Shown one piece after another: positions 25,087 through 40,640 of a stretch of DNA of 64,000 nt (position 1 is its first letter; each line of letters begins with the position of its first letter). The position numbers and the translations under genes were made by a program. Origin of the DNA: Niabella ginsenosidivorans (GTDB lineage: Bacteria > Bacteroidota > Bacteroidia > Chitinophagales > Chitinophagaceae); NCBI RefSeq assembly GCF_001654455.1, contig NZ_CP015772.1, positions 1,798,001-1,862,000 of the forward strand, given 5' to 3'. The notes under the pieces were generated by a model. The model searched no databases. It saw only the letters and a program-made list of their open reading frames with translations, and was not told where the DNA came from.

Positions 25087-26721
25087 TTAATACCCCGGGT
25101 TCTGTGTCAGATTTTTATTGGTCTGTATCTCAATATCCGGTATCGGCCATACATAGTTGGCCGGATTGATAAAGGTACGTACCTGTATAACCCGCATCTT
25201 ATCCTTATCCGGTACCTTGCTATAATCCGGCGTACCGTTGGCATCAATGGCAGGAGCTACGGAAAGAAATCCCCTTGGGTTACGGCCATAGCAGGGCCCG
25301 TTCAGCACTTTATCTGCGATCTTCCAGCGGATAATATCAAAATAACGCAACCCTTCTCCGGCCAGCTCTACTTTGCGTTCTTTGCGTACAACGGAACGCA
25401 GCTCGGCGCTTGTTTTTCCACTGGCGATATCAGGCATACCGGCTCTTTCCCGGATCTTATTGATGGCTGTATAAACTGATGCATCAATTTGTCCTGCTTC
25501 AATTTTTGCTTCTGCATAATTCAGCAATACCTCCGCATAGCGGATGATGATGGTATTGATCTCTGATCTTGTAGGATCTTTTTCCGAAGAATCTGCATAC
25601 TTTCTCCAACAGTAGCCGGAAAAACTTGCATAGGTATGTGTTGCATCCAGGTTATTGACACGGACAGCGGGAGACACATTGTAGTTCCAGCACATCAGGC
25701 TGTCCTTGTTGGTTTCAAACTGGTACCCGTAATACACAGAGCCGGGCAGCGCAATGGTCATGGCCAGCCTGGGATCCCTGTTTTTAAAGGGATGCGCGGG
25801 ATCATACAGAGGCGACTGATCTATGGATAACCCATCCGTGCAGTCATATGCGTCTACCAGGGCCTGCACCGGTATCCGGTTGCTGTACCCCCCGGCCATC
25901 CGGGAGCGGTAGGAAAGCGTCGTCTGATGATAGATATCGTTATAATTGAACTGGATAGCCCAGATGATCTCCTTAGAGGTTTCGCCGGACAGCATAGTAA
26001 GCGCCGCGTAATCGGGGTTCAGCACATACTCTGTTCCTTCCTGCTGCATTACCTTTTGAGCGGCTTCAATGGCATCTTCCCATTGCTCATTATAGAGGGC
26101 TACTCTTGATGCCAGCGCCCATGCGGCACCGGAAGAAACATTCATGGTGTTGGGCTGGTTGGCAGCAGGAAGCAATGCAGCTGCTGCTTTTAGCTCCGAG
26201 AGCACGAAATCAGTTACTTCCTTTTTAGGATTGCGGCCCACATAGGCTTCCTGTAAGGTCTGGCTTTTGATGATCAGCGGTACATCGCCATATAATTGTG
26301 AAAGTATGGAGTAGCTGTAGGCTCTTAAAAACCGTGCAGTGGCCTGTACATTCTGTTTGGCCTCCTCACTGGCATCGGCCACCCTGTCCATATGATCCAG
26401 CAAAAAATTGCATCGGGAAATAACGGTGTACATTGTATTCCAGATGGTGTTTACATCGCCGGCTGTGGGTGTGCCCCAGGAAGCATTGGGCGTAACATCC
26501 CTGTTGGCGGCAATGTCAGAGTACATCTCAAACCAGATGGCGTAAGGATTTTCTCCAAATCTTAAATTAAGCGGACTAAAACATCCTACCAATGCCGCCT
26601 GCATTTCAGATGCGGTGGCCGGGAAGGTTTCTGTTGAAGGCGCATCCAGGGGCAGCTTGTTGAGCTCCTTTGTGCAGGAGCATACCAGGATGATCATATA
26701 TAAATAGAATAGCTTTTTCAT
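25087..26721 (-). CDS. RagB/SusD family nutrient-binding lipoprotein
   Basis: The protein is about 544 residues from the ATG at 26721, which gives a compact lipoprotein signal (MKKLFYLYMIILVCSCTKEL). The SusD pattern is present: an N-terminal helical TPR-like part (RCNFLLDHMDRVADASEEAK, ATARFLRAYSYSILSQLYGD) and the C-terminal segment IRYAEVLLNYAEAKIEAGQ, KIRERAGMPDI, then VRKERKVELAGEGLRYFDII. It sits on the cell surface and holds the ligand over the SusC barrel. It is coupled to SusC, whose stop lies 39 bases upstream of it. The glycan is not revealed by the sequence, but GH51 downstream suggests arabinose-containing ligands. Confidence 0.93.
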   Translation of the reverse strand: MKKLFYLYMIILVCSCTKELNKLPLDAPSTETFPATASEMQAALVGCFSPLNLRFGENPYAIWFEMYSDIAANRDVTPNASWGTPTAGDVNTIWNTMYTVISRCNFLLDHMDRVADASEEAKQNVQATARFLRAYSYSILSQLYGDVPLIIKSQTLQEAYVGRNPKKEVTDFVLSELKAAAALLPAANQPNTMNVSSGAAWALASRVALYNEQWEDAIEAAQKVMQQEGTEYVLNPDYAALTMLSGETSKEIIWAIQFNYNDIYHQTTLSYRSRMAGGYSNRIPVQALVDAYDCTDGLSIDQSPLYDPAHPFKNRDPRLAMTIALPGSVYYGYQFETNKDSLMCWNYNVSPAVRVNNLDATHTYASFSGYCWRKYADSSEKDPTRSEINTIIIRYAEVLLNYAEAKIEAGQIDASVYTAINKIRERAGMPDIASGKTSAELRSVVRKERKVELAGEGLRYFDIIRWKIADKVLNGPCYGRNPRGFLSVAPAIDANGTPDYSKVPDKDKMRVIQVRTFINPANYVWPIPDIEIQTNKNLTQNPGY

Positions 26722-26760
26722 GCGTGTAAATTTTATAAAAACATGCAATTTTCTTTCGTA

Positions 26761-29700
26761 TCAGAACCTGAGGTTAATACCCAGGTTATAGGTTTTTACC
26801 TGCGGATAATAGGAACCGTTGCTGGCAGCATCGATCTCCGGATCCCAGCCCGGCCAGAAATGATCCATGGTAAACAGGTTTTCGCCGGATACATAGATCC
26901 GCAGCTGGCTGATACCGGCTTTTTGTAATAGCTGTTTGGGAATTGTATAGCCGAGCTGTATATTTTTAACCCGTAAATAGGCAGCGCTTTTCATCCAGAA
27001 ATCTGAGAGCTGGGTATTGTTGGTCTCCCCAAAAGCAAGACGTGGAAAAACGGCATTCGGATCAGGGTTATCAATGGTCCACCTGTTTTTCTGATATTCA
27101 TACGCAGTGCCGCCGGTAAGGAACGGCTGTATGGCATTGCCGGTTAAGTAACCATCTCTTTTGCCAACGCCCTGGAAGAAAACAGAAAAATCAAATCCTT
27201 TACAGGCCGCATTCAGGTTCAGGCTGTAGGTAAACCGCGGAATGGTGCTGCCCAGCACTTCCCGGTCGGATCCGTTGATGATGCCATCTTCCACCAGGTC
27301 TGCATACCGGATGTCTCCCGGAGCCAGCTTTCCGAATTGCTGGGCATGCAGGTAGCTGCCATCGGCACCAAAATCCGCTGCGGATAAAAGCCCCATAGAC
27401 TTGTAGAGATATAAGGAGTTAATCGGATAACCTTCCCTGTTTACAATCGTGCCTGTTTGCTGGATGCCTTTAAGATCCAGTACCTTATTTTTAACATCAG
27501 ACAATGTAAATGTGGCCCCATATTTAAATGCTTTTGCGGCATCAGAAGTATAATCCAGCTGCAGATCCCAGCCCTTGTTTTCCACTATCCCGGCATTTTG
27601 AAACGGCGCTGCAACACCCATTGTTTTGGGAATGCTCAGCTGCAATAAAATATCCCGGGTCTTTTTATAATAATAATCAAAAGAAACAGAAAGGTTATGC
27701 CACAACCGGGCATCCAGCCCGATATTGCTCATTTCGGTGGTTTCCCATGAAATATCCGTATTGGCCAGGCTCACAATGGCCGCGCCGTTCTGAACTTCTC
27801 CGTTGGAAACATACCTGGGATCCAGCGATACGGTGGGTGCAAAAGGATAGTTGGTACCTATTTCCTGGTTGCCCAGCTGCCCCCAGGAGGCCCGCAGTTT
27901 TAATTCATTCAATACATCCTGCGCCGCTTTCATAAATGGTTCTTCTGAAATGCGCCAGCCGGCAGAAAAGGAAGGGAAGGCGCCCCATTTGTTACCGGCA
28001 GCAAAGCGGGAAGAACCATCATAGCGCAGGTTTGCTTCCAGCAGGTATTTATTATCAAAGGCATAATTGATCCTGCCAAAATAGGAAATGAGTGTCCACT
28101 CCGTTGCATACCCGTTATTTTTCATATTGGCTGATGAACCACCGGAAAGCACAGGATAATCCGGGAACAGAAAATTATCCCGGAAGGCGCTGAAACCACT
28201 GTTAGACCCGGTGTAATACTGATAACCGGCCAGTGCACCAAGCGAATGCTTGCCAACATTTTTTGAAAAAGTAAGCGTGGCTTCCAGTTGGTTGGTCTTG
28301 TTCTGGTCCGTACTCTGATCCATGGTATTTACAGCCGGTACTGTAAAGCGCAATGCCCCGTCCGGATCATAGGTCTTAACCATATTTACAAAAGAGCGCA
28401 CATTGGGCTGGGAATAAGTAGGGGCAAAGCTGATCTTACCTGTTAAAAAATCAAAGGGCTTATAGCTTAATGAAAAGTTACCGGCCAGGGGATAGCTGGT
28501 CTCTCTCCAGAATCCTCCATTGTTGATTATGGCCACCGGGTTGACGCCGTTCTGTCCCTCTGCCCACAGACCATTGGAATATTTTACAGCCTGTACGGCA
28601 GGCAGCTTATTCATCAGTCCGAAAATAAGCGCCGTGCCGGTAGTGCTGCCCAGCGCAGCGCCTGAACCGCCCGGGAACTGTGCTACCGACTGCCGGTCAG
28701 TATTTACCAGGAATACATCGAAAGATCCGCTTAATTTCGACGACAGTTGTACATTGGCGTTCAGCCGGGCGTAGTAGCGTTTGAAGTTCACATTATCAAT
28801 CAGCCCTCCCTGGTTTAAATAGCCAAAGCTGCCGAAGAACTGAATCCTGTCTGTACCGCCGGAAGCGGTTATTACGTGATTGGTCTGGATGCCACTGCCG
28901 GTCAGTACCGCCTTCTGCCAATCCACATCCGGGTAGTGATCCGGATCTGTTGCTTTATTATTTTTATAGTTATTAATATACTCGTCGGAGTACAGCGGGC
29001 TTAAGCCCACATTGGTGTATGCTTCGTTAAGGAGCTGTATATGATCCAGCCCGTTGACCATTTTGGGCAGATTGGTGGCGCTTTGTTTGCCAACATACCC
29101 GTCATAGGAAAAGGAAAATTTTCCTTTCTTTCCCCTTTTGGTGGTAATAAGGATAACTCCGTTGGCCGCCCTGGATCCGTAAATGGCAGAGGAGGCGGCG
29201 TCCTTTAGAACGGAAATGGATTCAATGGAAGATACATCTACCGCATCCATCGACATTACAACGCCATCCACCAGCACCAGCGGGTTAGAATTATTGAGCG
29301 TGCCAATGCCGCGCACTCTTACGGTACCTCCGTCAACCCCCGGCTGGCCGGTGCTTTGTGTAATGGTAACGCCCGGTGCTACGCCCTGCAGGGCCATGGA
29401 GGTTTGTCCTACCTGGCGTTTGGCCATTTCTTCACCGGAAACGGCGGAAACGGCGCCGGTAAGGTTCACCTTTTTAGCAGTACCATAACCAATGACCACT
29501 ACTTCTTCCAATCCTCTGGTATCGGCCTCCATAGTAATGGACAATGCGGTTTTCCCTTCAACGGACAGCTCCTGTGTAAGATAGCCTACAGCAGAGCAAA
29601 CCAGTATGGCATCCGGCGCGGCTTCCAGCCGGAAGCTGCCCTGCTCATCGGACGTGGTGCCCAGTATCGGATTATTTTTTACGCTAACGGACACCCCCTG

Positions 29701-29841
29701 TAGCGGGCTGCCCTGCGCGGTGGTTATTTTTCCGCTGATCATTGTTTTCTGCTGTGCATTTAATGAAACGGAAATCAGCAGCAATGCCAGCAGGTGAATC
29801 CGGAAAGCGCTTCCGGCATAATGTAAAATCTTTTTTATCAT
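26761..29841 (-). CDS. SusC/RagA family TonB-linked outer-membrane protein
   Basis: The product is about 1026 residues from the ATG at 29841 (IKKILHYAGSAFRIHLLALL is the signal). Order: signal peptide; carboxypeptidase-like domain (about 35-110: ISGKITTAQGSPLQGVSVSV); TonB-box-like linker GLEEVVVIGYGTAKKVNLTGAV; plug domain to about residue 230; then a 22-strand barrel to the final LGINLRF, a proper outer-membrane C-terminal aromatic residue. It imports bound oligosaccharide with energy from TonB. It is followed by SusD, and a 16-bp hairpin separates it from the MFS gene upstream. Confidence 0.94.
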   Translation of the reverse strand: MIKKILHYAGSAFRIHLLALLLISVSLNAQQKTMISGKITTAQGSPLQGVSVSVKNNPILGTTSDEQGSFRLEAAPDAILVCSAVGYLTQELSVEGKTALSITMEADTRGLEEVVVIGYGTAKKVNLTGAVSAVSGEEMAKRQVGQTSMALQGVAPGVTITQSTGQPGVDGGTVRVRGIGTLNNSNPLVLVDGVVMSMDAVDVSSIESISVLKDAASSAIYGSRAANGVILITTKRGKKGKFSFSYDGYVGKQSATNLPKMVNGLDHIQLLNEAYTNVGLSPLYSDEYINNYKNNKATDPDHYPDVDWQKAVLTGSGIQTNHVITASGGTDRIQFFGSFGYLNQGGLIDNVNFKRYYARLNANVQLSSKLSGSFDVFLVNTDRQSVAQFPGGSGAALGSTTGTALIFGLMNKLPAVQAVKYSNGLWAEGQNGVNPVAIINNGGFWRETSYPLAGNFSLSYKPFDFLTGKISFAPTYSQPNVRSFVNMVKTYDPDGALRFTVPAVNTMDQSTDQNKTNQLEATLTFSKNVGKHSLGALAGYQYYTGSNSGFSAFRDNFLFPDYPVLSGGSSANMKNNGYATEWTLISYFGRINYAFDNKYLLEANLRYDGSSRFAAGNKWGAFPSFSAGWRISEEPFMKAAQDVLNELKLRASWGQLGNQEIGTNYPFAPTVSLDPRYVSNGEVQNGAAIVSLANTDISWETTEMSNIGLDARLWHNLSVSFDYYYKKTRDILLQLSIPKTMGVAAPFQNAGIVENKGWDLQLDYTSDAAKAFKYGATFTLSDVKNKVLDLKGIQQTGTIVNREGYPINSLYLYKSMGLLSAADFGADGSYLHAQQFGKLAPGDIRYADLVEDGIINGSDREVLGSTIPRFTYSLNLNAACKGFDFSVFFQGVGKRDGYLTGNAIQPFLTGGTAYEYQKNRWTIDNPDPNAVFPRLAFGETNNTQLSDFWMKSAAYLRVKNIQLGYTIPKQLLQKAGISQLRIYVSGENLFTMDHFWPGWDPEIDAASNGSYYPQVKTYNLGINLRF

Positions 29842-29891
29842 ATGGACATTATTTTGGTGATTAATACTCAATTCAGCAATCGTTTACGTAG

Positions 29892-29926
29892 CAGACCTAT
29901 AAGGTTTTTTAAACCTTATAGGTCTG
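29892..29926. terminator. Perfect 16-bp hairpin between the MFS and susC genes
   Basis: CAGACCTATAAGGTTT is followed by TTT and its exact reverse complement, AAACCTTATAGGTCTG. It begins at the base next to the MFS stop codon (29927). It may act as an attenuator or processing/stability hairpin that sets susCD levels apart from the upstream genes. A T-tract after the stem is absent in the minus direction, so a strict terminator is not proven. Similar ACCTATAAGGT palindromes occur as intergenic elements in Bacteroidota, from general knowledge. Confidence 0.65.
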
Positions 29927-31180
29927 TCATAGCCGGATGATCTGGCCCAGCTTACCGATCAGCAGTTGTACCCCGAAAAAAGTGAGCAGGTACATGAGTC
30001 CTACGGCAATAAAAACAGGCGTATAGGAAACGTTCTGAACCGTCCAGCCAATGGCAAACTGGGTAAGGATGGACGCACACCCGCCCAGCGTGCCACCCAG
30101 CCCGGTTAACGTGCCCTGTACCGATTTGGGAAATACTTCCGCCGGTAGGGTAATATTGCCCCACAGCCCGTGCCCGAACATGACGCCCGTAATGGCCATC
30201 AGGGCAATGGATAAGCTATGCGATTGAAACAACGCCAGGCAACAAAGGGGAATGAGCAGGGAAGCCGTCAGCATTACGGTTTTGCGTGCACGGTTCAGCG
30301 ACCAGCCGTTGCTGATGAGCTTCCGTGGGATAATGCCCCCGGCAATGGTACCAATGGCCAGGGCCAGGTAGGGGATCCACGCAAAATAGCCAACAAGGTT
30401 TAATGACATGCTCTGTTCTTCCTGTAAATATTTAGGGATCCAGAAAATAAGGAAATAGGTGCAGGGATCAATAAAGATACGCGCCACAAAACAACCCCAG
30501 GACTGGCGCATGCCCAGCAGTTGCCGGATGCCTGCCTTTTTTTTCGAAACCTCGGGTTCTGTATCGCTTTCTATATATTGCAGCTCTTTCTTTGTAATGC
30601 GGGGGTGGGTTTGCGGGGTATAATAATATTTCCACCAGCAATACACCCATACAAAACCGATAATACCGGTAGCTACAAAAGCAGACTGCCAGCCCCAGGC
30701 AAGGGTAATAAAGCTGACCAGCGGGGCTGCTACGGCTGCCCCTGCGGAAGAGCCTGCATTCAGCAGTCCTATGGCCAGCGCGCGTTCCTTTAACGGGAAC
30801 CATTCGGCGGCAGCTTTTACCCCTGCAGGGAAATTGCCGCTTTCTGCTGCACCCAGCAGGAACCGGGCACCACAAAACTGTGCTACGGTTTTGGCAAAAC
30901 CATGCAGCACATTGGCCACGGACCAGCCGCCGGCAAACCAGAGCAGGCTCCTGCGGGTGCCCCATTTATCTACCAGCCGCCCGCTGATGGCATACAGGAT
31001 CGTATAGCTGAGCAAAAAGGAAGAAGTGATCCAGGAATAATCCATATCTGACAACCGAAGCTCTTTCTGGATAGAGGGTGCCAGTACAGACAATACCTGC
31101 CGGTCCAGATAATTGAGCGCCGACACAAAGAACAAAAGCGCACCAATGCCCCAGCGTATATTACCGGTACCCTTATCCAT
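29927..31180 (-). CDS. MFS transporter, ACS family type
   Basis: The 417-residue protein has about twelve membrane segments. [20 protein letters not shown] after helix 1 and [20 protein letters not shown] (motif A between helices 2 and 3) mark the ACS-like (sugar acid/hexuronate) group. The [27 protein letters not shown] segment (helix 4-5; 9-residue start AESGNFPAG) is highly typical of that group. It is likely to import a released sugar or sugar acid. Its start overlaps the stop of the FAD oxidoreductase gene by eight bases, so the two are translationally coupled. SusC, SusD and GH51 follow. Confidence 0.9.
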
Positions 31181-32666
31181 GCTCCATATCTTTAAAAGGA
31201 TTAAAATGGCTGGCCGCCGCCCCGGAACCGTCTCCCTTGGTCAGGGCCAGTTTGGCGTTGGCTTCCATCGGGTCTTCCATACCAATAAGGTATTGCCCCT
31301 GTTCAATCAATGCGGCCCTCAATGCTTTTGTATCTACCTCTCTGGTGGTCAGTTGCTGCTTTACCATGGCGGCGGCCGCAACACCGGCACCCTGGCCAAT
31401 ACCCATGCAGGTGGCCATTACACGTGCGGAGCCAAAGGCGGTATGTGTGGCGGAAATGCTTCTGCCGGCTACCAGTACATTGTCCAGCCCGGCCGGCAGC
31501 AGGCTGCGGTAAGGAATTTCGTAAACGGCCTTGCCGGATCCCGTAAAGATCTGCTGTTCCCCTTCCGGCGGGTGAATGTCGATGGCAAAAGTGCCGCAGG
31601 CAATGCCATCCTCAAAAGCGCGGTTGGAAAGTACATCCTGTTCGGTCAGTTTATAGTCGCCTTTTATATGCCTTGTTTCCCGCACGCCCACCTGCACGCC
31701 CGTGTCCAGGATATATGAGTTTTCAAAACCACCCACATGTTTTTTCAGAAAGTTATGGATCGCCCAGGCCTGTGAGCGGGTCTCCACTTCCGCGCGTGTA
31801 AGATCAGCGGCATTGGTGCCGTCGATGCCCTGGAGCCGGGTGGCATTCACTGCTATTTGTCCCTCCTGTGGTAACTGGTAAAATAAAATCCTGGGTGCTG
31901 CGTCTTTGGGAAACTCACCCGTTTCCATGCCTTTTTTTACCAGCTCCTTTAGCCCCAGAAATGCGATGGCTTCGCTGGAATCAATTTCTTCATCGGTAGG
32001 AGCGTCCTTCAGCAGGTCGCGGTTTTGTTTCATCCAGTTTCTGAGCGTTGTTATATCAATACCGCCGATGCGGTAAAACAGGGTCACCGGCTGCATGGCG
32101 CCGTCTTCTTCGCGGCCTTTTACAAACGGTGCCCCGGCCATCGCCGCAATATCAGCATCAGCAGAGCAGTCAATGATCACCTGCGGGCAAATGGCCTGGC
32201 GGCCTGATTTATTTTCGATAATAACAGCAGTAACTTTCCCGTTCTCTTTCTGTACCCCCACTGCCCATGTATGTAATAACAGTTCCACACCTGCTTCCTG
32301 TGCCATCTGAAATAAAAGGTATTTCATACCTTCCGGGTCAAAGGGCGTCATGGAAGCATTGTCAAACGTAAGATCGGTAATATGGCCCTGTGAAGATTTT
32401 AATGCAACGAGCCGGTTTACCAGTTCACCGGCAATACCGCGGATCACCTGTTTGCCTTGCACATCATGAAAGGTGAACATGGGGTTTACCATTGCAATGG
32501 TTAAGTTTCCTCCCAGGAAGCCATAACGTTCCAGCAGCAGCACTTTTGCCCCGTTCCTTGCAGCGGCAATGGCTGCGCCAATACCCGCAGGGCCTGCACC
32601 CACTACCAGCACTTCCGGGCGGGCATATACCGGCAGCGCTCGTTTTTCTTCTTCAATAAAATTCAT
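31173..32666 (-). CDS. FAD-dependent oxidoreductase (PF12831 type)
   Basis: The 497-residue protein has an N-terminal dinucleotide-binding motif [20 protein letters not shown] and the second FAD strand [14 protein letters not shown], with a GG after the E/D, as in the FAD_oxidored family. C-terminal [20 protein letters not shown] and [14 protein letters not shown]-like ends ([20 protein letters not shown]) close the FAD site. No signal peptide is seen, so it is cytoplasmic. Family members occur in sugar-use loci but their substrates are mostly unknown. It is the first gene of the sugar-use operon, divergent from lacI, and overlaps the MFS gene by eight bases. Confidence 0.88.
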
Positions 32667-32735
32667 ATGACAACTAATTTTCTGCTAATCTATTGCCCAA
32701 TAACCGATAAAACAATGAATCGGATCATAAATTAT

Positions 32736-32763
32736 GCGGGAACATTCCCGCAACCGTTCCCGC
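32736..32763. promoter_or_regulatory. Palindromic operator-like sites in the lacI/FAD-oxidoreductase divergent gap
   Basis: GCGGGAACATTCCCGC (32736-32751) is a 16-base inverted repeat with 7-base arms. Its right half recurs as GTTCCCGC at 32756-32763. TATCTTTC at 32771-32778 resembles the Bacteroidota -7 element TAnnTTTG with one change and lies about 25 bases before the lacI start. I infer a LacI-family operator controlling one or both divergent units. Confidence 0.6.
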
Positions 32764-32801
32764 AATTTCGTATCTTTCCAAATAAGGAACGATTTTGTTT
32801 T

Positions 32802-33830
32802 ATGAAGAATCATCAGATAACGATCATTGATATTGCGCGGGAACTGGGCATCTCCAAGTCTACCGTTTCCCGTGCTTTGACCAACAGCACCAACATCAGC
32901 CCGGAAACGAGGGAGGCGGTACTTAAAAAAGCAAAGGAACTGGATTACCAGCCCAATATGCTGGCGCTGGGCCTTATCCGTAATGAATCGCGCACCCTTG
33001 GTGTGGTGATACCGGATATACAGAAACCATTTTTTGCTGCTATTGTAAGCGGCATTCAGCATACGGTAAGCCGTATTGGCTATCGTATTGTGATTGCGCA
33101 GTCGGACGAATCGCCCGAAGTGGAAAAAGAAAATATAAAGGCCCTCATGCTGAGCCGCGTGGATGGTTTTATTGTATGCCATACCCGCGATACAAAAGAC
33201 TTTGAGCACATTAAGCTGCTGCATGGTAAAGGCTACCCGCTGGTGTCTTTTGCCCGTATTTGCCCGGAGCTGCCCATACCCAAAGTGGTGGAAGATGATT
33301 TTAACGGGCTTTATACCACTACCCAGCATCTGATAGAACAGGGTAAAAAAAGGATCGCGCTCCTGGCGGGGCCACGGCAACTGCTGGCCAGCAAATTACG
33401 GGTGAACGGGTATAAGGTGGCATTGCAGCAGCATGGTATTCCGTTTGATAAAGAACTGGTGGCGCATACAAAATTCCTGCACGACCAGGTGGCGGCTGCA
33501 CTGGAACGCTGGCTAAGTCTGAAAAACCCGCCGGATGGAATCTGCACGGTGTATGATGCCGGCGCAGTAAAGCTGGTTGAACTGCTGAAACAAAAAGGCA
33601 TAAAGGTCCCGGATGAGATCGCTGTTGCGGGTTTTGGAGATGATCCTGCCGCATCCATCATAGAGCCGGGGCTGACCTCCTATGCGCAAAAGCCTTATGA
33701 AATAGGAGTGGTTGCCGGCAGGTACATGCTGGACCTGCTGAACAAAAAATACCCCGTGCATCATTCGGACATGACCATTTGCAAGGGAACGCTGGTAGTA
33801 CGCAAATCAACCTGCAGCCGGCTCAGATAG
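32802..33830 (+). CDS. LacI-family transcriptional regulator
   Basis: The protein is 342 residues from the ATG at 32802. This start is chosen because the helix-turn-helix follows at once (ITIIDIARELGISKSTVSRA, then LTNSTNISPETREAVLKKAK). A longer frame upstream would add an unlikely non-homologous extension and would run over the operator-like palindromes. The periplasmic-binding-like effector domain fills about residues 60-340 (TLGVVIPDIQKPFFAAIVSG, DEIAVAGFGDDPAASIIEPG). It is divergent from the FAD-oxidoreductase/SusCD/GH51 operon and probably controls it in response to a sugar. Effector unknown. Confidence 0.93.
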   Translation: MKNHQITIIDIARELGISKSTVSRALTNSTNISPETREAVLKKAKELDYQPNMLALGLIRNESRTLGVVIPDIQKPFFAAIVSGIQHTVSRIGYRIVIAQSDESPEVEKENIKALMLSRVDGFIVCHTRDTKDFEHIKLLHGKGYPLVSFARICPELPIPKVVEDDFNGLYTTTQHLIEQGKKRIALLAGPRQLLASKLRVNGYKVALQQHGIPFDKELVAHTKFLHDQVAAALERWLSLKNPPDGICTVYDAGAVKLVELLKQKGIKVPDEIAVAGFGDDPAASIIEPGLTSYAQKPYEIGVVAGRYMLDLLNKKYPVHHSDMTICKGTLVVRKSTCSRLR

Positions 33831-34352: not shown

Positions 34353-37300
34353 TTATGGATCAATAGTAACTCTTATTCCTTCGCTGTGCGCGGTAAATTC
34401 CGGCGCATACATGCACTGGATGCTGGTAATGCCATTGCTGAAGTTTCCGGCAACGGTTGCAAACAGATTGTATTCAAATACATAGGCTCCCTTTGGCAGG
34501 TAGCCGAAAAAGAAATTGGTACTGGCGTCCCTGGTGGTTTCATAATAACCCAGGCCACCCTGCCATTTGTAGGAGCTGAGCACATTTACCGGCTCAAAAC
34601 CACTAGCACGCATGTCTTTTAGATGTACGTATTCCATATCCCGGTCAGCCCGCAGCTCTATGCGCACTTTTATCTTATCGCCTACTTTTACGGAACCACC
34701 TTCTGCCACCGGTGTTAATACAGGGCCCCGGTCGCTATTGGTTTCCACAAATAATTTTTTGCTGAGCTGTAACGGCGTTTCCGCAAAGCTGATCTTGTCC
34801 AGGTCTTCAAAGTATTGCCAGTACAGGCTTCCCCAGGTGGGCAGGCTGCTGCTTTGATTGCCAGATGCAGGGGCCTTTACAAACACTTCAACGTTGCCCA
34901 TTGCCGGTTTTACCTTTTCCCCCGGAATGGTCTTTTTCAGATAGCCTGTTCCTGCTTCTGCTCCTTCCCCGGATGAGGTGATCTCCATAGCTCCCAGTTG
35001 TATTTTTACGTCGGGCGTTATCGTAAGCCATTGCGTTCCCTGTAATAATAAGGCGTAGCAGGCTTCAGCCGTAGCTTTGGTGCTTTCCCAGTTATTGGTC
35101 TGCTTGTTTTTCAGCAGCCAGGTACGCAGATCATCTGCTGTCTTTTTATCTTTTGCAATTTCTTCAAAAGCTTCTATGATGAGTGCCTGGCGCTCAATGG
35201 GCGCCTCATACCACCACCAGCTGCGGGCGGCATCTTTATAATACATGCCCAGCTCTTCATTGTTTACAGCCGTCTCCTGTAGAGACTTTAAGATCGCTTT
35301 TGGCGTAGCTGCATCGCCCTTGCGGTGCAGCGCCAGGGCAATCATGCCCTGCATGTATTCGTTGGCCTTTGTCCATGTCCTGGCTGCGCGATCCGTAAAG
35401 TAAGTAACGGCTTTTTGGGCATCCGCAGGAATTTTCTGATCATCAAAAAAGCTGCGCATGTATAAATACTGGATCATATAATAAGAAGGAGTGTATTCAT
35501 TTAGCCTGACTTTATTGCGGATCAGTTCTTCGTATTCCTCTTTTATACGTGCATCCAGGTAGGGAATGGCTTTGCGGATGATGCTGTTTAATTTTTGTGC
35601 CTGCGATGGTTCAATCGCGTTTATCTTTTTCAGATGTCCGATGCCGGTCAGAATGTACTGCGTCATGTAACGATCGTCCCTGCCGCCTTTGAACCATACA
35701 AAACCGCCGTTGGGACTTTGCAGCTGGCTGAGCTTATCATAAGCGCTGTTCAGCTCCCGGCTCATGCGCACCAGGTCAAACAACAGGGTAATGTTCTTTT
35801 TTTGCTGTGTTTCATTCCGGGCCTGCAGCACCCAGGGAGTTTCTTCCAGCAACACCGCTTTCAGCTCCTGGTTCTTTTGCAGGTTGCTGAGCAGGGCAGC
35901 AGTATCGGCCCCGGAAGGGGAGGCTTTCGACCATTGTTCGAATACCTGTTTTATTTTGGGCGAACTATTGGCAATGAGCGTAGCCAGTGAGTTGGCGTAA
36001 TAGCGGTTCCAGGTCTGCTCTGCGCATTCATAAGGGTATTCCATCATATACGGCAGTGCCTGTACCGCATACCATGCGGGGTTGGATGTATATTCCACTG
36101 TTAATGCCTGCGTGGTAAGCGTTTCACTGCCGCCGCTTTTGAGCAGTTTATCAAACCCGAATTTTTTAGTGCCAAAGCCGCGCAGCTGCAAAGGCAATGA
36201 TTCGGTAACCAGCATACGGTTGGTGAGTACCGGCAGCATGCTCTCTTCACCATCGCTTAGCGCTGTTAGGCTGTCACTGGTAACTTTTGCCACAATGCGC
36301 CAGGTTATGGCCTTGCTAAACTGGTAGGGCACTTCTACGGGAAATTTTACGGCCTGGCTTTGCCCCGCCGCTATGGTAAAATATTGCTGCGGTATGGCGT
36401 TCTTAAACCAGCCATCAATGGGCTCATTGGTGGCTGCATCAAACAATTGCAGGGTGGCAATACCGGTTACTTCTTTTGCCGACAGGTTCACCACCTTGGT
36501 ACTGAGCTCCAGTTTGTCGCCTTCCCTCAAAAAGCGCGGTATGTTGGGCTGTATCATCAGCTCTTTTTGGGTAATAATCTCTTTGGAGGAATAGCCCAAT
36601 GCAAGATCCCTGGTATGCGCCATTGCCTGGAACTTCCACCGGGTAAGTGCTTCGGGCATGGTAAAGGAAAAGCGGATATTGCCCCGGGCGTCTGTTTTCA
36701 GATCAGGAAAAAAGAAAGCGGTTTCATTAAAGTTGCGACGCGGTGTAACAGCTGCATTATTTTCCTCAGGCAACTGGAAACCATTTTTCGTTTTTATGAC
36801 GATAACGCCGTTGGCTCCTTTTGCCCCGTAAATAGCAGTAGCTTCTGCGTTCTTTAATATTTCTATGCTGGTTATCTGGTCGGCAGGGATCAGTTCTGTG
36901 GGGTTACCGGTGCCGGTGTATATTTTACCGTCAATAATATATAAAGGGGGCGTGCCGGATGCTGCCGTGCTATTGCCGCGTATGAGTATGCCCGATTGCT
37001 CCTGCGCTATGGCTGCATCGGCAGCAGGCGCGCTTATCCCCCTTACGGCACCCGTGAGCGCTTTTCTCATCACCCTGCCGTACCCCACAGTTACTACTTC
37101 TTCTAAATAGCCGCCGCTGTAGTAGCCGGGAAAAGCAAACTGATCATAGTTTTTTTCATAGCTTTCATAGCTGGAGGCTATTGTATTGTTATCTTGTGAA
37201 CGGATGCCCGTAAAATTACTGTTGGCGTTCCATGCAGCAGTATTATAACGGCTGGACCATAATGCGGGTATGTTCCATTGATGCGGGTAAAACTGGTCTA

Positions 37301-40300
37301 AGGAGGCATCGTACATACCGGCCAGCATTTCAGCCGCCACCCGGCTGCCTTTATACCCGCTGATCTTTATGCTCCACTTTTCTTCTGCACCGGGCAGGGC
37401 CTTATCCCTGAAGGTTTCATATTCTATTTTCAGGTCTTTATTGGTCCAGGGCACATGGATCGTCTGATTGCTGGTATAGACCCGGTTATTTTTTACAAAC
37501 AAAAAACCTACGCTATAGCCACCCCTGTCTTTTTCGGTGGCACCCAGCTCCAGCTTCTTTATGCTGTTGTTGAGCGAAGAGAAGGTATAGCTGGTCTGAT
37601 CCTTACTGATGCTTTGTACCAGGAACACCTCCGGTGCGGCACTGCCTATTTCAATACTGGTTGTTTCTCCGGGCTCAATGGCAGCAGGTGCTTTTGTCCA
37701 TAAATATTGCGGAAAAGCAAGCCGGCCCTGCTTTTCATTATAGACTTCCGTATAATGAATGTCTTTTACTTCTTTCCCGTTTTTGTCCTTTGCTGTAACT
37801 TCAACTACATAATAACCGGGCTCTACAGCACTTTTGTTTAACACAAAGGTTCCTGTTGAATCAGTTACGCCCGACTGAAGAACCACCTGCTGCTCTTTTG
37901 GCCAGTTGGCCGGCTCGTTCTCATTCTTATAAATGTCGTTGGGGAAGTTCTTTATATATTCTTCTTTTGACAGTACAAACTGGTCGGGCTGCTCCCAGTA
38001 GCGGCTTCTGAGCAAACGTTGCTCGGGCTTCAGCCTTGTAATGGTTACGTTAACAGTTGCTTTTTCAAAACTGCCTGCCATATTTTCTGTTCGGATATTC
38101 AGTTGCTGCAGCTGCTCTGGCAGAACACGTGCAGGAATATCAGCTTTTATCAATAAGGATTTATAGCCTACCGCAACCCCGTTTTCCCCGCTTCTTACCT
38201 CCCCGTTGATATCGGTAACATCTGCATAAACCCGGTAGTCAAACACAGGCTCCATTTCCGGATCAATACTCCGGTCGGGTATCGCATTAAAGCGGATAAC
38301 AAATTTGCCATCTGCATCGGTTGTGGTGGTTCCCTGTGTAATTTCCATCTGCTGCTGGTTTACCGGCCACCAGTAACGGGCCCGGATCCAGGGATAGGGG
38401 AAGCGCGCCTGGCGTACCACACGATAACTTACCGCGGCATTGTCCACATTATTACCGGCGTAGGCTTTTGCAAAACCAGTAATGGTGATGTCTTCGTTCA
38501 GTTGATAGGTGCCTTTCATTTTTTCAAAATCCACGTAAAACTTCGGGCGCTTGTATTCTTCCATTTTAAAAGAGCAGCTTCCATCAGGGCTGGAAATGCT
38601 GAAGTTGCCATTGAGGCCATTTTCCGGCAGTTGAAAAGTGCCGTTAAAGGAGCCAAACTCATTGGTAGTAACAGCTATGTCTGAGACCTTCTGATGGTTG
38701 GCATCATACAGGGTTACGGTTGTTTTAAATCCTGTAAGGATCCCGGATCTCTTATCCCGGGGATCATAGCTGACGGCTATACCTTTAAAATAAACAGTCT
38801 GCCCGGGGCGGTACAGACTGCGATCTGTAAAAAAGAATACCCGGTTCGATTTTTTGGTATCAGTGCGGGTATAATCGTTGTAATAATAGCCGCTGCTTTG
38901 ATCGTCCATAAACAGGCGTTCATCATTGTAAGTAATATCCAATAAATAGTTATAACCGGCGATTCGTTTTGCTGTTGCAGTGTTTTGTTGGTGCTTAAAG
39001 GTAAAATGCCCGTTTGGGTCGGTGATCAAGTCCGCTATTTTTGTGTTGGTGTACCTGCGTGCCGTGTAGTTATAAGCCTTATTCCATACCGTCACCTTTG
39101 CATGGGGCAGGGGCTGCCCGCTGTTCCGGTCCAGAACAAAAAAGTCGTTTTTATTATTCACATAACTGATGCCGGAGATATAGGTGAGCTGGGCTGCAAG
39201 AATATTTCCGGACTGCCGGAAGTCTTCATGGAGGGATGTTAACACATAATATTCTCCTGCCGGTAAGCCTTCCGCTTTTATTTCCACACGATGCTGCCGG
39301 TAATCATCTGAAGCGGGTAATGCCTGCTGCCAGCTGTTTACGGGCTGCGCTGCTGTAAGCTGGCTCCAGTACCCCGGGTTGCTACCGGGATCCGTAACAG
39401 CGTTTTTTAGTTCCCTGGTAGCCTTAATAACGCGCAGGTAAACAACGGGCGCATTTTTATAAGTAATGAACAGGCGAAAGGGCGCTAAAGGTATATTTAC
39501 TTTCTCCAGCTGGAAGCCCAGCTCCGGCTGACGTAGTTGCTGCAGCAGGTTCCGGGCATTTACGCTTCCCTCGCTTTTTTCTTTTGCGGCGGCAATTTTT
39601 TCAAGGATCGCTTTTGCGTTTGCTATGTGCCGGTCATCAGGGTGCTTTTTGTTGTCAGGCAGATTGCCCTGGTTGTACTGCCATTGCGCCATCAGGAACC
39701 AGGCCTGTGCTGCGGCAGGAAGGTCAGCGTATTTTTGGGCAATTTTTTCAAGCGCAGCATAATAGAGCGTATCCTTATCGGGGTTTACAGCATGGTCATA
39801 TACAAACTGCAGGCGGCTGATATCTGCATCAATCAGGGCATCGGGTTTATTATCCTTTAAGTGAAATTGTAATAATTGCTGATAAATGCGCAATGCATTC
39901 AATAATAGCGATGCGGAATCTTTTGTCTGAAAAACAGTGTGGGAAAAGGTCTCAGCGGTTGCAAAGGCTTCCGGCTGACTGATCTCAAACCGGTATGCAG
40001 GTTGTGTTACGGACCGCTCGGGGTTGGTAAAATAGTCAAGCGCGCGGTAAGCCAGCAGGTCATAAAGAGTAGAGCGCAGGTAACGCATGTTTCCTTTGAT
40101 GATCAGCGCATCGTAGGCTTCTAATTTTGTATGCTGCAGCAATGGCGCATCCTGTAAGGACGCCAGGTATAAGCGGCTGATCTGCCGGTTAAAATCATCA
40201 ATCGTCCAGGTGGCAGGATCAGTTTTTTCAAATTGTGTTGTGTTGGTACGGTTGTACAGCTGGTACCGGTGCCGGTTAAAATATTGCTGGTACACACCGG

Positions 40301-40640
40301 CCAGGTAGCTTTTCAGCAGGGAAGCAGCAGGTTCTCTTGTGGCAGCTGTTTCTTTTTCCAGCTCACTAATGCTGCGGAGCCCGTTATCTTCCCGGTTCTC
40401 CTGCTGCAACTGGTTCATATATATGAGCGCTTTTACTATTTGTGCATCCTGTTGATCGGTCTTTGCTTTTGTGTATATTTTTTTTACGATTTCAAGAGCA
40501 GATTTAGGCAGCCCTTTATTTACATTATCTGTTACTGTTTCCCAATCGGACTCATAATTCTTTACGGATTGAGCAGAGCTTTTCATAAATAAAAAAAGAA
40601 GCGTTATTAAAAACAGGACATTGGTTTTCAGGATCTTCAT
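34353..40640 (-). CDS. Giant alpha-2-macroglobulin-like protein with an embedded SusC-type TonB plug
   Basis: From the ATG at 40640 (chosen for the signal MKILKTNVLFLITLLFLFMK) the product is about 2095 residues. Order: signal; helical N-terminal part (to about 350); macroglobulin-type domains (MG2 near 608, DRSLYRPGQTVYFKG); at about 1174-1290 a SusC-like module, LEEVVTVGYGRVMRKALTGA, then ILIRGN and TSIEILKNAEATAIYGAKGA, ending VIVIKTKNG; the A2M domain near 1307 (FFFPDLKTDARGNIRFSFTM); thioester motif YPYECAEQ near 1538 in an alpha-toroid; and C-terminal receptor-like domains. The signal lacks a lipid Cys, unlike many bacterial A2Ms. The plug sits where the protease bait region is expected. 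Function of the fusion is unknown; a surface or periplasmic trap is one guess. No PBP1C gene is adjacent. Confidence 0.9.
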   Translation of the reverse strand: MKILKTNVLFLITLLFLFMKSSAQSVKNYESDWETVTDNVNKGLPKSALEIVKKIYTKAKTDQQDAQIVKALIYMNQLQQENREDNGLRSISELEKETAATREPAASLLKSYLAGVYQQYFNRHRYQLYNRTNTTQFEKTDPATWTIDDFNRQISRLYLASLQDAPLLQHTKLEAYDALIIKGNMRYLRSTLYDLLAYRALDYFTNPERSVTQPAYRFEISQPEAFATAETFSHTVFQTKDSASLLLNALRIYQQLLQFHLKDNKPDALIDADISRLQFVYDHAVNPDKDTLYYAALEKIAQKYADLPAAAQAWFLMAQWQYNQGNLPDNKKHPDDRHIANAKAILEKIAAAKEKSEGSVNARNLLQQLRQPELGFQLEKVNIPLAPFRLFITYKNAPVVYLRVIKATRELKNAVTDPGSNPGYWSQLTAAQPVNSWQQALPASDDYRQHRVEIKAEGLPAGEYYVLTSLHEDFRQSGNILAAQLTYISGISYVNNKNDFFVLDRNSGQPLPHAKVTVWNKAYNYTARRYTNTKIADLITDPNGHFTFKHQQNTATAKRIAGYNYLLDITYNDERLFMDDQSSGYYYNDYTRTDTKKSNRVFFFTDRSLYRPGQTVYFKGIAVSYDPRDKRSGILTGFKTTVTLYDANHQKVSDIAVTTNEFGSFNGTFQLPENGLNGNFSISSPDGSCSFKMEEYKRPKFYVDFEKMKGTYQLNEDITITGFAKAYAGNNVDNAAVSYRVVRQARFPYPWIRARYWWPVNQQQMEITQGTTTTDADGKFVIRFNAIPDRSIDPEMEPVFDYRVYADVTDINGEVRSGENGVAVGYKSLLIKADIPARVLPEQLQQLNIRTENMAGSFEKATVNVTITRLKPEQRLLRSRYWEQPDQFVLSKEEYIKNFPNDIYKNENEPANWPKEQQVVLQSGVTDSTGTFVLNKSAVEPGYYVVEVTAKDKNGKEVKDIHYTEVYNEKQGRLAFPQYLWTKAPAAIEPGETTSIEIGSAAPEVFLVQSISKDQTSYTFSSLNNSIKKLELGATEKDRGGYSVGFLFVKNNRVYTSNQTIHVPWTNKDLKIEYETFRDKALPGAEEKWSIKISGYKGSRVAAEMLAGMYDASLDQFYPHQWNIPALWSSRYNTAAWNANSNFTGIRSQDNNTIASSYESYEKNYDQFAFPGYYSGGYLEEVVTVGYGRVMRKALTGAVRGISAPAADAAIAQEQSGILIRGNSTAASGTPPLYIIDGKIYTGTGNPTELIPADQITSIEILKNAEATAIYGAKGANGVIVIKTKNGFQLPEENNAAVTPRRNFNETAFFFPDLKTDARGNIRFSFTMPEALTRWKFQAMAHTRDLALGYSSKEIITQKELMIQPNIPRFLREGDKLELSTKVVNLSAKEVTGIATLQLFDAATNEPIDGWFKNAIPQQYFTIAAGQSQAVKFPVEVPYQFSKAITWRIVAKVTSDSLTALSDGEESMLPVLTNRMLVTESLPLQLRGFGTKKFGFDKLLKSGGSETLTTQALTVEYTSNPAWYAVQALPYMMEYPYECAEQTWNRYYANSLATLIANSSPKIKQVFEQWSKASPSGADTAALLSNLQKNQELKAVLLEETPWVLQARNETQQKKNITLLFDLVRMSRELNSAYDKLSQLQSPNGGFVWFKGGRDDRYMTQYILTGIGHLKKINAIEPSQAQKLNSIIRKAIPYLDARIKEEYEELIRNKVRLNEYTPSYYMIQYLYMRSFFDDQKIPADAQKAVTYFTDRAARTWTKANEYMQGMIALALHRKGDAATPKAILKSLQETAVNNEELGMYYKDAARSWWWYEAPIERQALIIEAFEEIAKDKKTADDLRTWLLKNKQTNNWESTKATAEACYALLLQGTQWLTITPDVKIQLGAMEITSSGEGAEAGTGYLKKTIPGEKVKPAMGNVEVFVKAPASGNQSSSLPTWGSLYWQYFEDLDKISFAETPLQLSKKLFVETNSDRGPVLTPVAEGGSVKVGDKIKVRIELRADRDMEYVHLKDMRASGFEPVNVLSSYKWQGGLGYYETTRDASTNFFFGYLPKGAYVFEYNLFATVAGNFSNGITSIQCMYAPEFTAHSEGIRVTIDP

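Follow-up and report, generated by a model that had tools for sequence, protein, structure and literature searches.

Known members of the alpha-2-macroglobulin (A2M) family snap shut on attacking proteases. What the bacterial members protect against, and how their bait sequence is chosen, are questions of interest here. Passages of one study of human A2M place the bait at residues 690-728 and describe it as wholly replaceable, its sequence setting which protease cuts (PMC8267569). Passages of another report that the trigger requires the bait to be discontinuous, and that R732 and F735 in the alpha'NT stretch thread a channel and retract once the bait is cleaved (PMC9352918). We analysed a stretch of 64,000 nucleotides of the Niabella ginsenosidivorans genome (contig NZ_CP015772.1, positions 1,798,001 to 1,862,000; hereafter the window), which encodes an A2M-family protein. 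Judged from its sequence, this protein carries at its bait site the Ton box and plug of a SusC/RagA-type TonB receptor. The features that define the arrangement are the following, in window coordinates.

34353..40640, minus strand, A2M gene, 2095 amino acids, ATG at 40640; an upstream TTG (18 codons) leaves the frame open
36741..37202, minus strand, bait segment, residues 1147-1300, hypervariable among relatives
37077..37106, minus strand, Ton box LEEVVTVGYG, residues 1179-1188, matched by the plug profile and equivalent to DEVVVTG of BT1763 (as given in passages of PMC7782687)
36777..37064, minus strand, shortened SusC/RagA-type plug, residues 1193-1288, found with Pfam, NCBIfam, Protein Data Bank (PDB) sequences and the plug profile
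36786..36875, minus strand, SusC/RagA signature, residues 1256-1285, TIGR04057 at 48.8 bits
36729..36740, minus strand, trigger behind the bait, R1301-R-N-F1304, in alignment with R732/F735 of human alpha'NT

The plug is recognised by curated models of two databases. Pfam Plug (PF07715) matches residues 1192-1279 with 33.7 bits (cut-off 23.9), and the NCBIfam model TIGR04057 (SusC_RagA_signa) passes its cut-off of 46.2 bits at residues 1256-1285. In addition, residues 1193-1288 match RagA/SusC among PDB sequences (best E about 1e-7). Since two curated cut-offs are passed and neither reversed baits nor same-length flanks gave any match at E<=0.1 in the survey described below, a chance match is excluded. 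All motifs quoted in a preliminary description of this DNA for residues about 1174-1290 are present in the translation, in the order quoted. The span given there, 36775-37120, comes close to the exact extent of Ton box plus plug (36777-37106), which is shorter than in SusC and is followed by the R-R-N-F trigger (1301-1304). The full-length SusC model TIGR04056 aligns only over model positions 114-206 of 981, indicating a plug without a barrel; of the features of a SusC/RagA transporter, the plug with its SusC signature is thus present and the transmembrane beta-barrel is absent. In the alignment, the plug has about 25 residues fewer than that of SusC, with the gap between LTGAV and the IRIRG strand. 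Immediately ahead of its Ton box, the window A2M has no PF13715 match in Pfam, the family of the N-terminal extension of these transporters.

The position of the plug is defined by the sequence behind it. In a region profile built from 54 sequences (52 related A2Ms, plus the window A2M and the plug of the window SusC), RKNFNETAFFFPDL, directly behind the plug, aligns with human A2M RKYFPETWIWDL and with the matching stretch of A2ML1. In this sequence alignment, R1301 and F1304 stand at the positions of human R732 and F735. The profile matches to human A2M and A2ML1 are weak (E 0.03-0.04); all seven chains found belong to the A2M family, and the three E. coli chains among them align only further downstream. 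This observation is in line with the bait position expected in the preliminary description and places the plug inside the bait site, as the sequence right behind it aligns with the human post-bait stretch. In the 12 residues that surround the domain start, R-x-x-[F/L/M/V/Y] occurs in 234 of 243 A2M regions, including all 83 regions with plug sequence, and R-x-x-F is present in 25 of 25 loci of a further set. The thioester motif YPYECAEQ is retained in the window A2M, as had been described, and CxEQ is kept in 21 of 23 regions with a plug core and 55 of 60 with plug pieces (both defined below). Two plug-bearing A2Ms, L273 and L274, have the thioester Cys replaced by Ser (YEHESAEQ, FEHESAEQ), and their close relatives keep the Cys.

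By the sequence features tested, the window protein is a Type I (thioester) A2M. Its MG2, PF00207 and bMG10 domains all pass the curated Pfam cut-offs, and it contains the CxEQ whose absence marks Type II. The PF00207 match is the only one in the whole genome, which is a single contig of 5.63 Mb. Since the genome is a single contig, the frame of the gene is free of stops and the same architecture recurs in other genomes, the plug within an A2M is not an assembly artefact. The protein may be exported to the periplasm, as a signal-peptide-like N-terminus read by eye suggests. The other features of the protein, and the SusC gene used for comparison, are as follows.

40569..40640, minus strand, putative type I signal peptide, residues 1-24, MKILKTNVLFLITLLFLFMKSSAQ, without a lipobox Cys, read by eye
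38589..38843, minus strand, MG2 domain, residues 600-684, Pfam PF01835 at 64.7 bits
37296..37316, minus strand, MYDASLD, residues 1109-1115, conserved end of the macroglobulin (MG) half before the bait, in near-invariant alignment columns
36462..36722, minus strand, A2M domain PF00207, residues 1307-1393, Pfam
36015..36038, minus strand, thioester motif YPYECAEQ, residues 1535-1542 with Cys1539; C, E and Q near-invariant in the alignment of relatives
34398..34772, minus strand, bMG10, C-terminal macroglobulin domain, residues 1957-2081, Pfam PF17973 at 124.2 bits
26761..29841, minus strand, genuine SusC of the window, called the true SusC in the preliminary description and matched as a full SusC by TIGR04056 at 951 bits

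Plug sequence recurs in the baits of relatives. PF00207 was found in 49 of 59 relatives, 143 of 195 family genomes and 106 of 247 phylum genomes. The A2M regions sampled are ranked or evenly drawn matches, not random ones, and overlap between searches, so that their percentages are not population frequencies. From 135 A2M loci we obtained 117 non-identical baits, after dropping 5 without a recognisable domain start, 5 with too little upstream sequence and 8 with identical baits, and replacing the window's own locus by the window. A plug profile built from 25 SusC plugs of the window's own genome matched 24, 33, 48 and 60 of these baits at E<=0.001, 0.01, 0.1 and 1, against means of 0, 0.06, 0.32 and 3.14 over 50 shuffles. 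Reversed baits and same-length flanks gave 0 matches at E<=0.1, and 8 (reversed) and 1 and 1 (flanks) at E<=1. The other five reading frames yielded none at E<=0.1 and 1 in total at E<=1, compared with 48 at E<=0.1 in the coding frame. Unbiased scans agree with this pattern: NCBIfam reported TIGR04056 in 21 baits and no non-TonB family in more than one, and Pfam reported Plug in 3, with every other family confined to a single bait at most. Stretches of the form DGDGxxD, TSP3/OmpA-like and noted visually in some baits, had no family support.

Typical bait pieces read EVVVVGYGTQKK..TGAVS, LQGRVAGI, IRIRG, LYVVDGV and ALYG..NGVIIITTKKG. With simple motif patterns, at least one plug motif is found in 53 of the 117 baits. 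Listed in plug order, the five motifs occur in 30, 32, 23, 4 and 2 baits, with chance expectations of 0.06-1.6 per motif (0.8 for the last); the Ton box, in 30 of 117, is among the commonest. The motifs are out of plug order in 17 of 27 multi-motif baits, and a folded plug is therefore not what is kept there. A QGRVAGI-like motif alone occurs in 8 baits and an IRIRG-like motif alone in another 8 (chance 0.1 and 1.6); such single motifs other than the Ton box speak for a role as cleavable peptide in the window-like type. Further sets of regions gave matches at E<=0.1 in 1 of 27 phylum best matches, 12 of 40 family regions of the window-like type, 11 of 20 regions that are other copies, mostly from the family, and 19 of 40 from class and phylum, with 0 matches in the downstream controls. 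The plugs of the 11 regions are collinear, possess a Ton box and score 104-142 bits, and they include all six fetched second A2M copies of the window's genus, while the remaining nine of the 20 belong to an A2M branch without any plug sequence. As to the conservation raised in the preliminary description, plug sequence in A2M baits is neither unique nor universal, being present in 83 of the 243 regions.

These 243 regions, nearly all from Bacteroidota with two records titled Cloacimonadota, were placed on a FastTree phylogeny from which the bait was excluded (14 short or identical regions of 257 dropped). Defining a plug core as a profile match that reaches the last motif with at least 30 bits, we found a C-terminal plug core in 23 regions, plug pieces in 60 and no plug sequence in 160. 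The Ton box is matched in 17 of the 23 core regions and not in L098, L106, L213, L272, L276 and L280. Thirteen core regions make up one complete paralogous clade (13 of 13 members, support 100), in which no member lacks the Ton box; the remaining 10 lie scattered over the tree. On this tree, presence or absence of any plug sequence requires at least 46 changes, 31 of them forced by well-supported branches, and the plug core requires 10, of which 7 are forced. The window A2M is nested with six others of its genus in a clade of seven (support 97); five of the six carry pieces and one carries nothing, so that the window plug has been either regained or uniquely kept. In a weakly resolved tree of the plugs themselves, the window plug groups with the A2M plugs L272, L273, L274, L276 and L280 (96/83), next to L106. 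Decay of one ancestral plug everywhere is not favoured, given the out-of-order baits (17 of 27) and the scattered core regions, for which at least 7 of the 10 changes are forced. An old capture combined with gene conversion may have produced the pattern.

The sister clade with intact plugs was also considered as a thioester-less Type II group, which was rejected: C, E and Q are invariant in its 10 alignment rows (YEYLCNEQ type), and CxEQ is kept in the core regions as given above. The window genome lacks a second A2M paralogue with an intact plug cassette, and six congeners (L233, L235-L239) carry one. In all four cassette proteins scanned whole, three from the intact-plug clade (L298, L302, L303) and one from the window-like side (L305), the Ton box stands behind CarboxypepD_reg (PF13715, the N-terminal extension of SusC); Plug reaches the Pfam cut-off in three of them and was found in L303 by our plug profile only. 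A profile of the intact-plug clade, searched against 295 class genomes, returned 25 loci in 23 genomes. Among these loci, a SusC-type plug core is present in 4 (two already in the set) and pieces in 2 at E<=0.1; at E<=1, 20 of the 25 match CarboxypepD_reg and 7 match Plug. Several other loci among the 25, read by eye, seem to contain plug bits of other TonB-receptor families (YYIDG, AEYGDSLGG). The baits of L325, L326, L333, L334, L337, L328 and L344, likewise read by eye, show plug-like bits of non-SusC TonB receptors (RGARxxGTxYYVDG, GGxxAxYGDSxGG), at most of these seven behind a CarboxypepD_reg-like stretch. The sequences suggest that baits are recruited from several receptor families.

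Recent copying from a SusC of the same genome into the window plug was rejected, as the best other match reaches 58.9 bits at 41% identity and the best DNA match is 76% over 62 bp. The same holds for the pieces of two relatives, where DNA matches of at least 30 bp reach at most 86% and a few of 16-20 bp reach 94-100%. With no close donor DNA in the three genomes (at most 86% over any match of at least 30 bp), the motifs have persisted while their DNA drifted. Seven same-genus sequences of the window type share on average 0.35 pairwise identity in the bait and 0.91 downstream; among the six second copies the values are 0.58 and 0.80. Relative to its own protein, the intact plug is thus held tighter than the degenerate baits. 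In eight same-genus sequences, which were picked for having the Ton-box piece and are therefore biased towards conservation, the proportion of nonsynonymous differences (pN) is 0.25 in that piece, compared with 0.40 for the bait stretch preceding it and 0.44 for the one that follows. The proportion of synonymous differences (pS) is near saturation in these sequences, at 0.70-0.76.

Structure prediction supports a plug fold in part. In an AlphaFold2 model of residues 985-1515, the MG domains are confident and most of the bait/plug segment has a predicted local distance difference test (pLDDT) score <50. The best Foldseek matches of this model are complement C3, ECAM (5a42), A2ML1 and other A2M-family structures (E about 1e-12, template modelling scores near 0.3 over the whole construct). 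The plug segment itself is not resolved in this model. A second model of residues 1165-1300, based on seven sequences, has a mean pLDDT of 59, with ten-residue means of 60-79 in the C-terminal half; the N-terminal half lies mostly at <50. In Foldseek, the eleven PDB entries that match this model best are all SusC or SusCD-complex structures, two of them at a root-mean-square deviation (rmsd) of 2.0-2.3 over 54 columns; their E-values are weak (best 0.016, at rmsd 6.3), and sequence similarity contributes to the matches. A plug fold is thus supported in part, for the C-terminal half, which is predicted with moderate confidence to fold with a weak likeness to SusC plugs, and not for the mostly low-scoring N-terminal half. 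With about 25 residues missing and only half of it predicted to fold, the window plug may be trimmed or partly disordered.

As the thioester and the trigger are mostly kept, a working trap is the likeliest reading, and the protein would be exported and would trap like other A2Ms. We favour, at about an even chance of being right, a working thioester trap whose bait is built from the periplasm-facing start of a TonB receptor (Ton box plus SusC-type plug) and serves as a self-mimicking decoy for receptor-cutting proteases. A protease entering the periplasm would cut the plug/Ton-box bait, upon which the stretch behind it (R1301-F1304) would slide from its channel; the thioester would then be exposed and the protease bound. 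Because the bait would copy segments of the cell's own receptors, the trap would be fired by the very proteases that would damage them. Receptor segments would be mimicked since they are abundant and exposed, the window's genome having 91 plug matches, including the A2M one.

Several points weigh against this decoy. The 160 of 243 regions without plug sequence indicate that the trap does not need a plug. The sister clade retains Ton box and plug, collinear as in a receptor, and this points to a folded or TonB-related role over a loose decoy. Trap function and protease cleavage are predictions from sequence, and export depends on an N-terminus read by eye; the decoy purpose is likewise conjectural, and the choice of bait could be neutral. 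Moreover, a folded insert as large as this is, to our knowledge, without precedent in a bait. The length of the bait affects the native fold of human A2M, according to passages of PMC9352918.

The hypervariable bait (0.35 identity against 0.91 downstream) could also reflect capture without adaptation, in which the numerous 5' parts of SusC genes are often copied by recombination, settle in an insert-tolerant bait and decay without function. The patchiness of the pieces on the tree (46 any/none changes, at least 31 forced) and the decayed look of many of them fit such a process, as do the other inserts carried at the same place by the loci found with the intact-plug profile (CarboxypepD_reg 20/25, Plug 7/25, E<=1). 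However, plug matches are confined to the coding frame (48 against 0 in the five others at E<=0.1), although some captures in other frames would be lost to stop codons; the motifs have outlasted their DNA, with no close donor in three genomes; pN is lowest in the Ton-box piece, in sequences whose choice biases this value; and one clade keeps intact plugs in 13 of 13 members. We regard capture without function as possible but unlikely. The decoy reading also has to be set against TonB docking or gating by force, in which the Ton box of the bait would bind the C-terminal domain of TonB, and either hold the trap under the outer membrane or let the pull of TonB fire it uncleaved. The Ton box of the window A2M and its frequency among baits (30/117) agree with this, its intact state in the sister clade (13/13) leaves room for TonB binding there, and a receptor barrel with its own plug adjoins one clade member (L298). 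Also in its favour, passages of PMC7782687 describe the Ton box of BT1763 as flexible and report that growth on levan is impaired in Ton-box mutants in a way similar to a SusD deletion. Yet docking to TonB leaves unexplained the baits whose sole motif is QGRVAGI-like or IRIRG-like (8 each; chance 0.1 and 1.6) and the 160 of 243 regions without recognisable plug sequence, and we consider it rather improbable. A force-gated version, in which TonB powered by the proton gradient would grip the bait's Ton box and pull the trigger stretch from its channel, so that the energy state of the envelope would fire or reset the trap besides proteolysis, seems very improbable.

In the preliminary description, the plug had also been proposed to dock to a beta-barrel and link the trap to the outer membrane. 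For the plug to enter a plug-free or opened barrel, and thereby bring the trap to damaged receptors, a SusC-like sequence and a folded half resembling SusC plugs would be suitable, and a receptor barrel gene adjoins the A2M gene at one of the five loci scanned from the intact-plug clade (L298, L299, L300, L301 and L303). However, among the ten open reading frames (ORFs) scanned beside these A2M genes, this barrel (OMP_b-brl_3, L298:4451-6886) is the only one; it has its own plug and lies on the opposite strand to the adjoining A2M gene. The other nine ORFs matched no barrel family (metabolic, transport and other housekeeping genes, one without a family), and no partner gene is shared among the ten. 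In addition, the window plug is about 25 residues short, and the short, permuted pieces of many relatives contain no plug able to fit a barrel. Docking of this kind is scarcely credible. Of the earlier proposal that the plug is part of the bait, the bait position and the thioester thus hold, the plug fold holds in part, and the barrel docking and outer-membrane link are conjectural.

The seven ORFs scanned beside the window A2M comprise SusD, MFS, FAD oxidoreductase, LacI, PCMT, LysE and one without a family, and include no PBP1c. At 25087-33830, the SusC/SusD pair stands beside genes for an MFS transporter, an FAD oxidoreductase and a LacI regulator, which is likely a sugar-uptake locus. Elsewhere in the same genome, at about 3.617 Mb of contig 1, L307:2134-4164 encodes an M56 (BlaR1-like) peptidase in which SusC-type plugs are matched twice by our profile and once by Pfam. 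Its C-terminal part contains a Ton-box-like stretch, LQEVIVRGYG, making it another plug-bearing non-transport protein linked to proteolysis. The genome also encodes MG2-domain proteins of about 810-825 amino acids (L313:1584-4019, L313:4152-6581 and L315:848-3316), in which MG2 scores below the Pfam cut-off. In their C-terminal parts, these proteins look like degenerate plugs (LQGRIPGI, LYLDEMPAD, NGAIAIYTRKG). The plug profile matched L315 alone, with 19.6 bits, and Pfam reported no Plug in the two scanned.

Full-text literature searches, which mostly did not cover subscription journals, found among the papers listed no description of an A2M with a plug or TonB-receptor bait, and a full-text search likewise found none of a plug domain in M56 peptidases. 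Plug may already be assigned to A2M proteins in automatic annotations. TonB does not occur in passages of a recent A2M review (PMC12939704). The Type I class of the window protein is known, and its bait appears, from the sequence, to be of a kind that we did not find described. If baits are indeed made repeatedly from the cell's own TonB receptors, they would name the target that is protected. The receptor plug moreover emerges as a mobile module employed beyond transport, as it is in the M56 peptidase too.

Among described systems, the window protein resembles the Type I bacterial A2Ms ECAM (YfhM) of E. coli and SaA2M of Salmonella in its MG2, A2M and bMG10 domains, its CxEQ, a bait set between the halves of a single MG domain and a post-bait trigger. 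It differs from them in that its bait carries a Ton box and plug, its N-terminus reads as that of a soluble exported protein and not of a lipoprotein, and PBP1c is absent from its seven scanned neighbours. The Type II A2M MagD of Pseudomonas aeruginosa is likewise a macroglobulin with a bait and is periplasmic, but lacks the CxEQ that the window protein possesses (passages of PMC5764988). With SusC/RagA transporters the window protein shares the Ton box, the plug motifs and their order, and three scanned proteins of the sister clade add the CarboxypepD_reg extension; unlike these transporters, it has no barrel, and its plug is shortened and embedded in an A2M. The M56 (BlaR1-like) peptidase of the same genome also holds a SusC-type plug in a non-transporter, but is a peptidase and not a protease trap.

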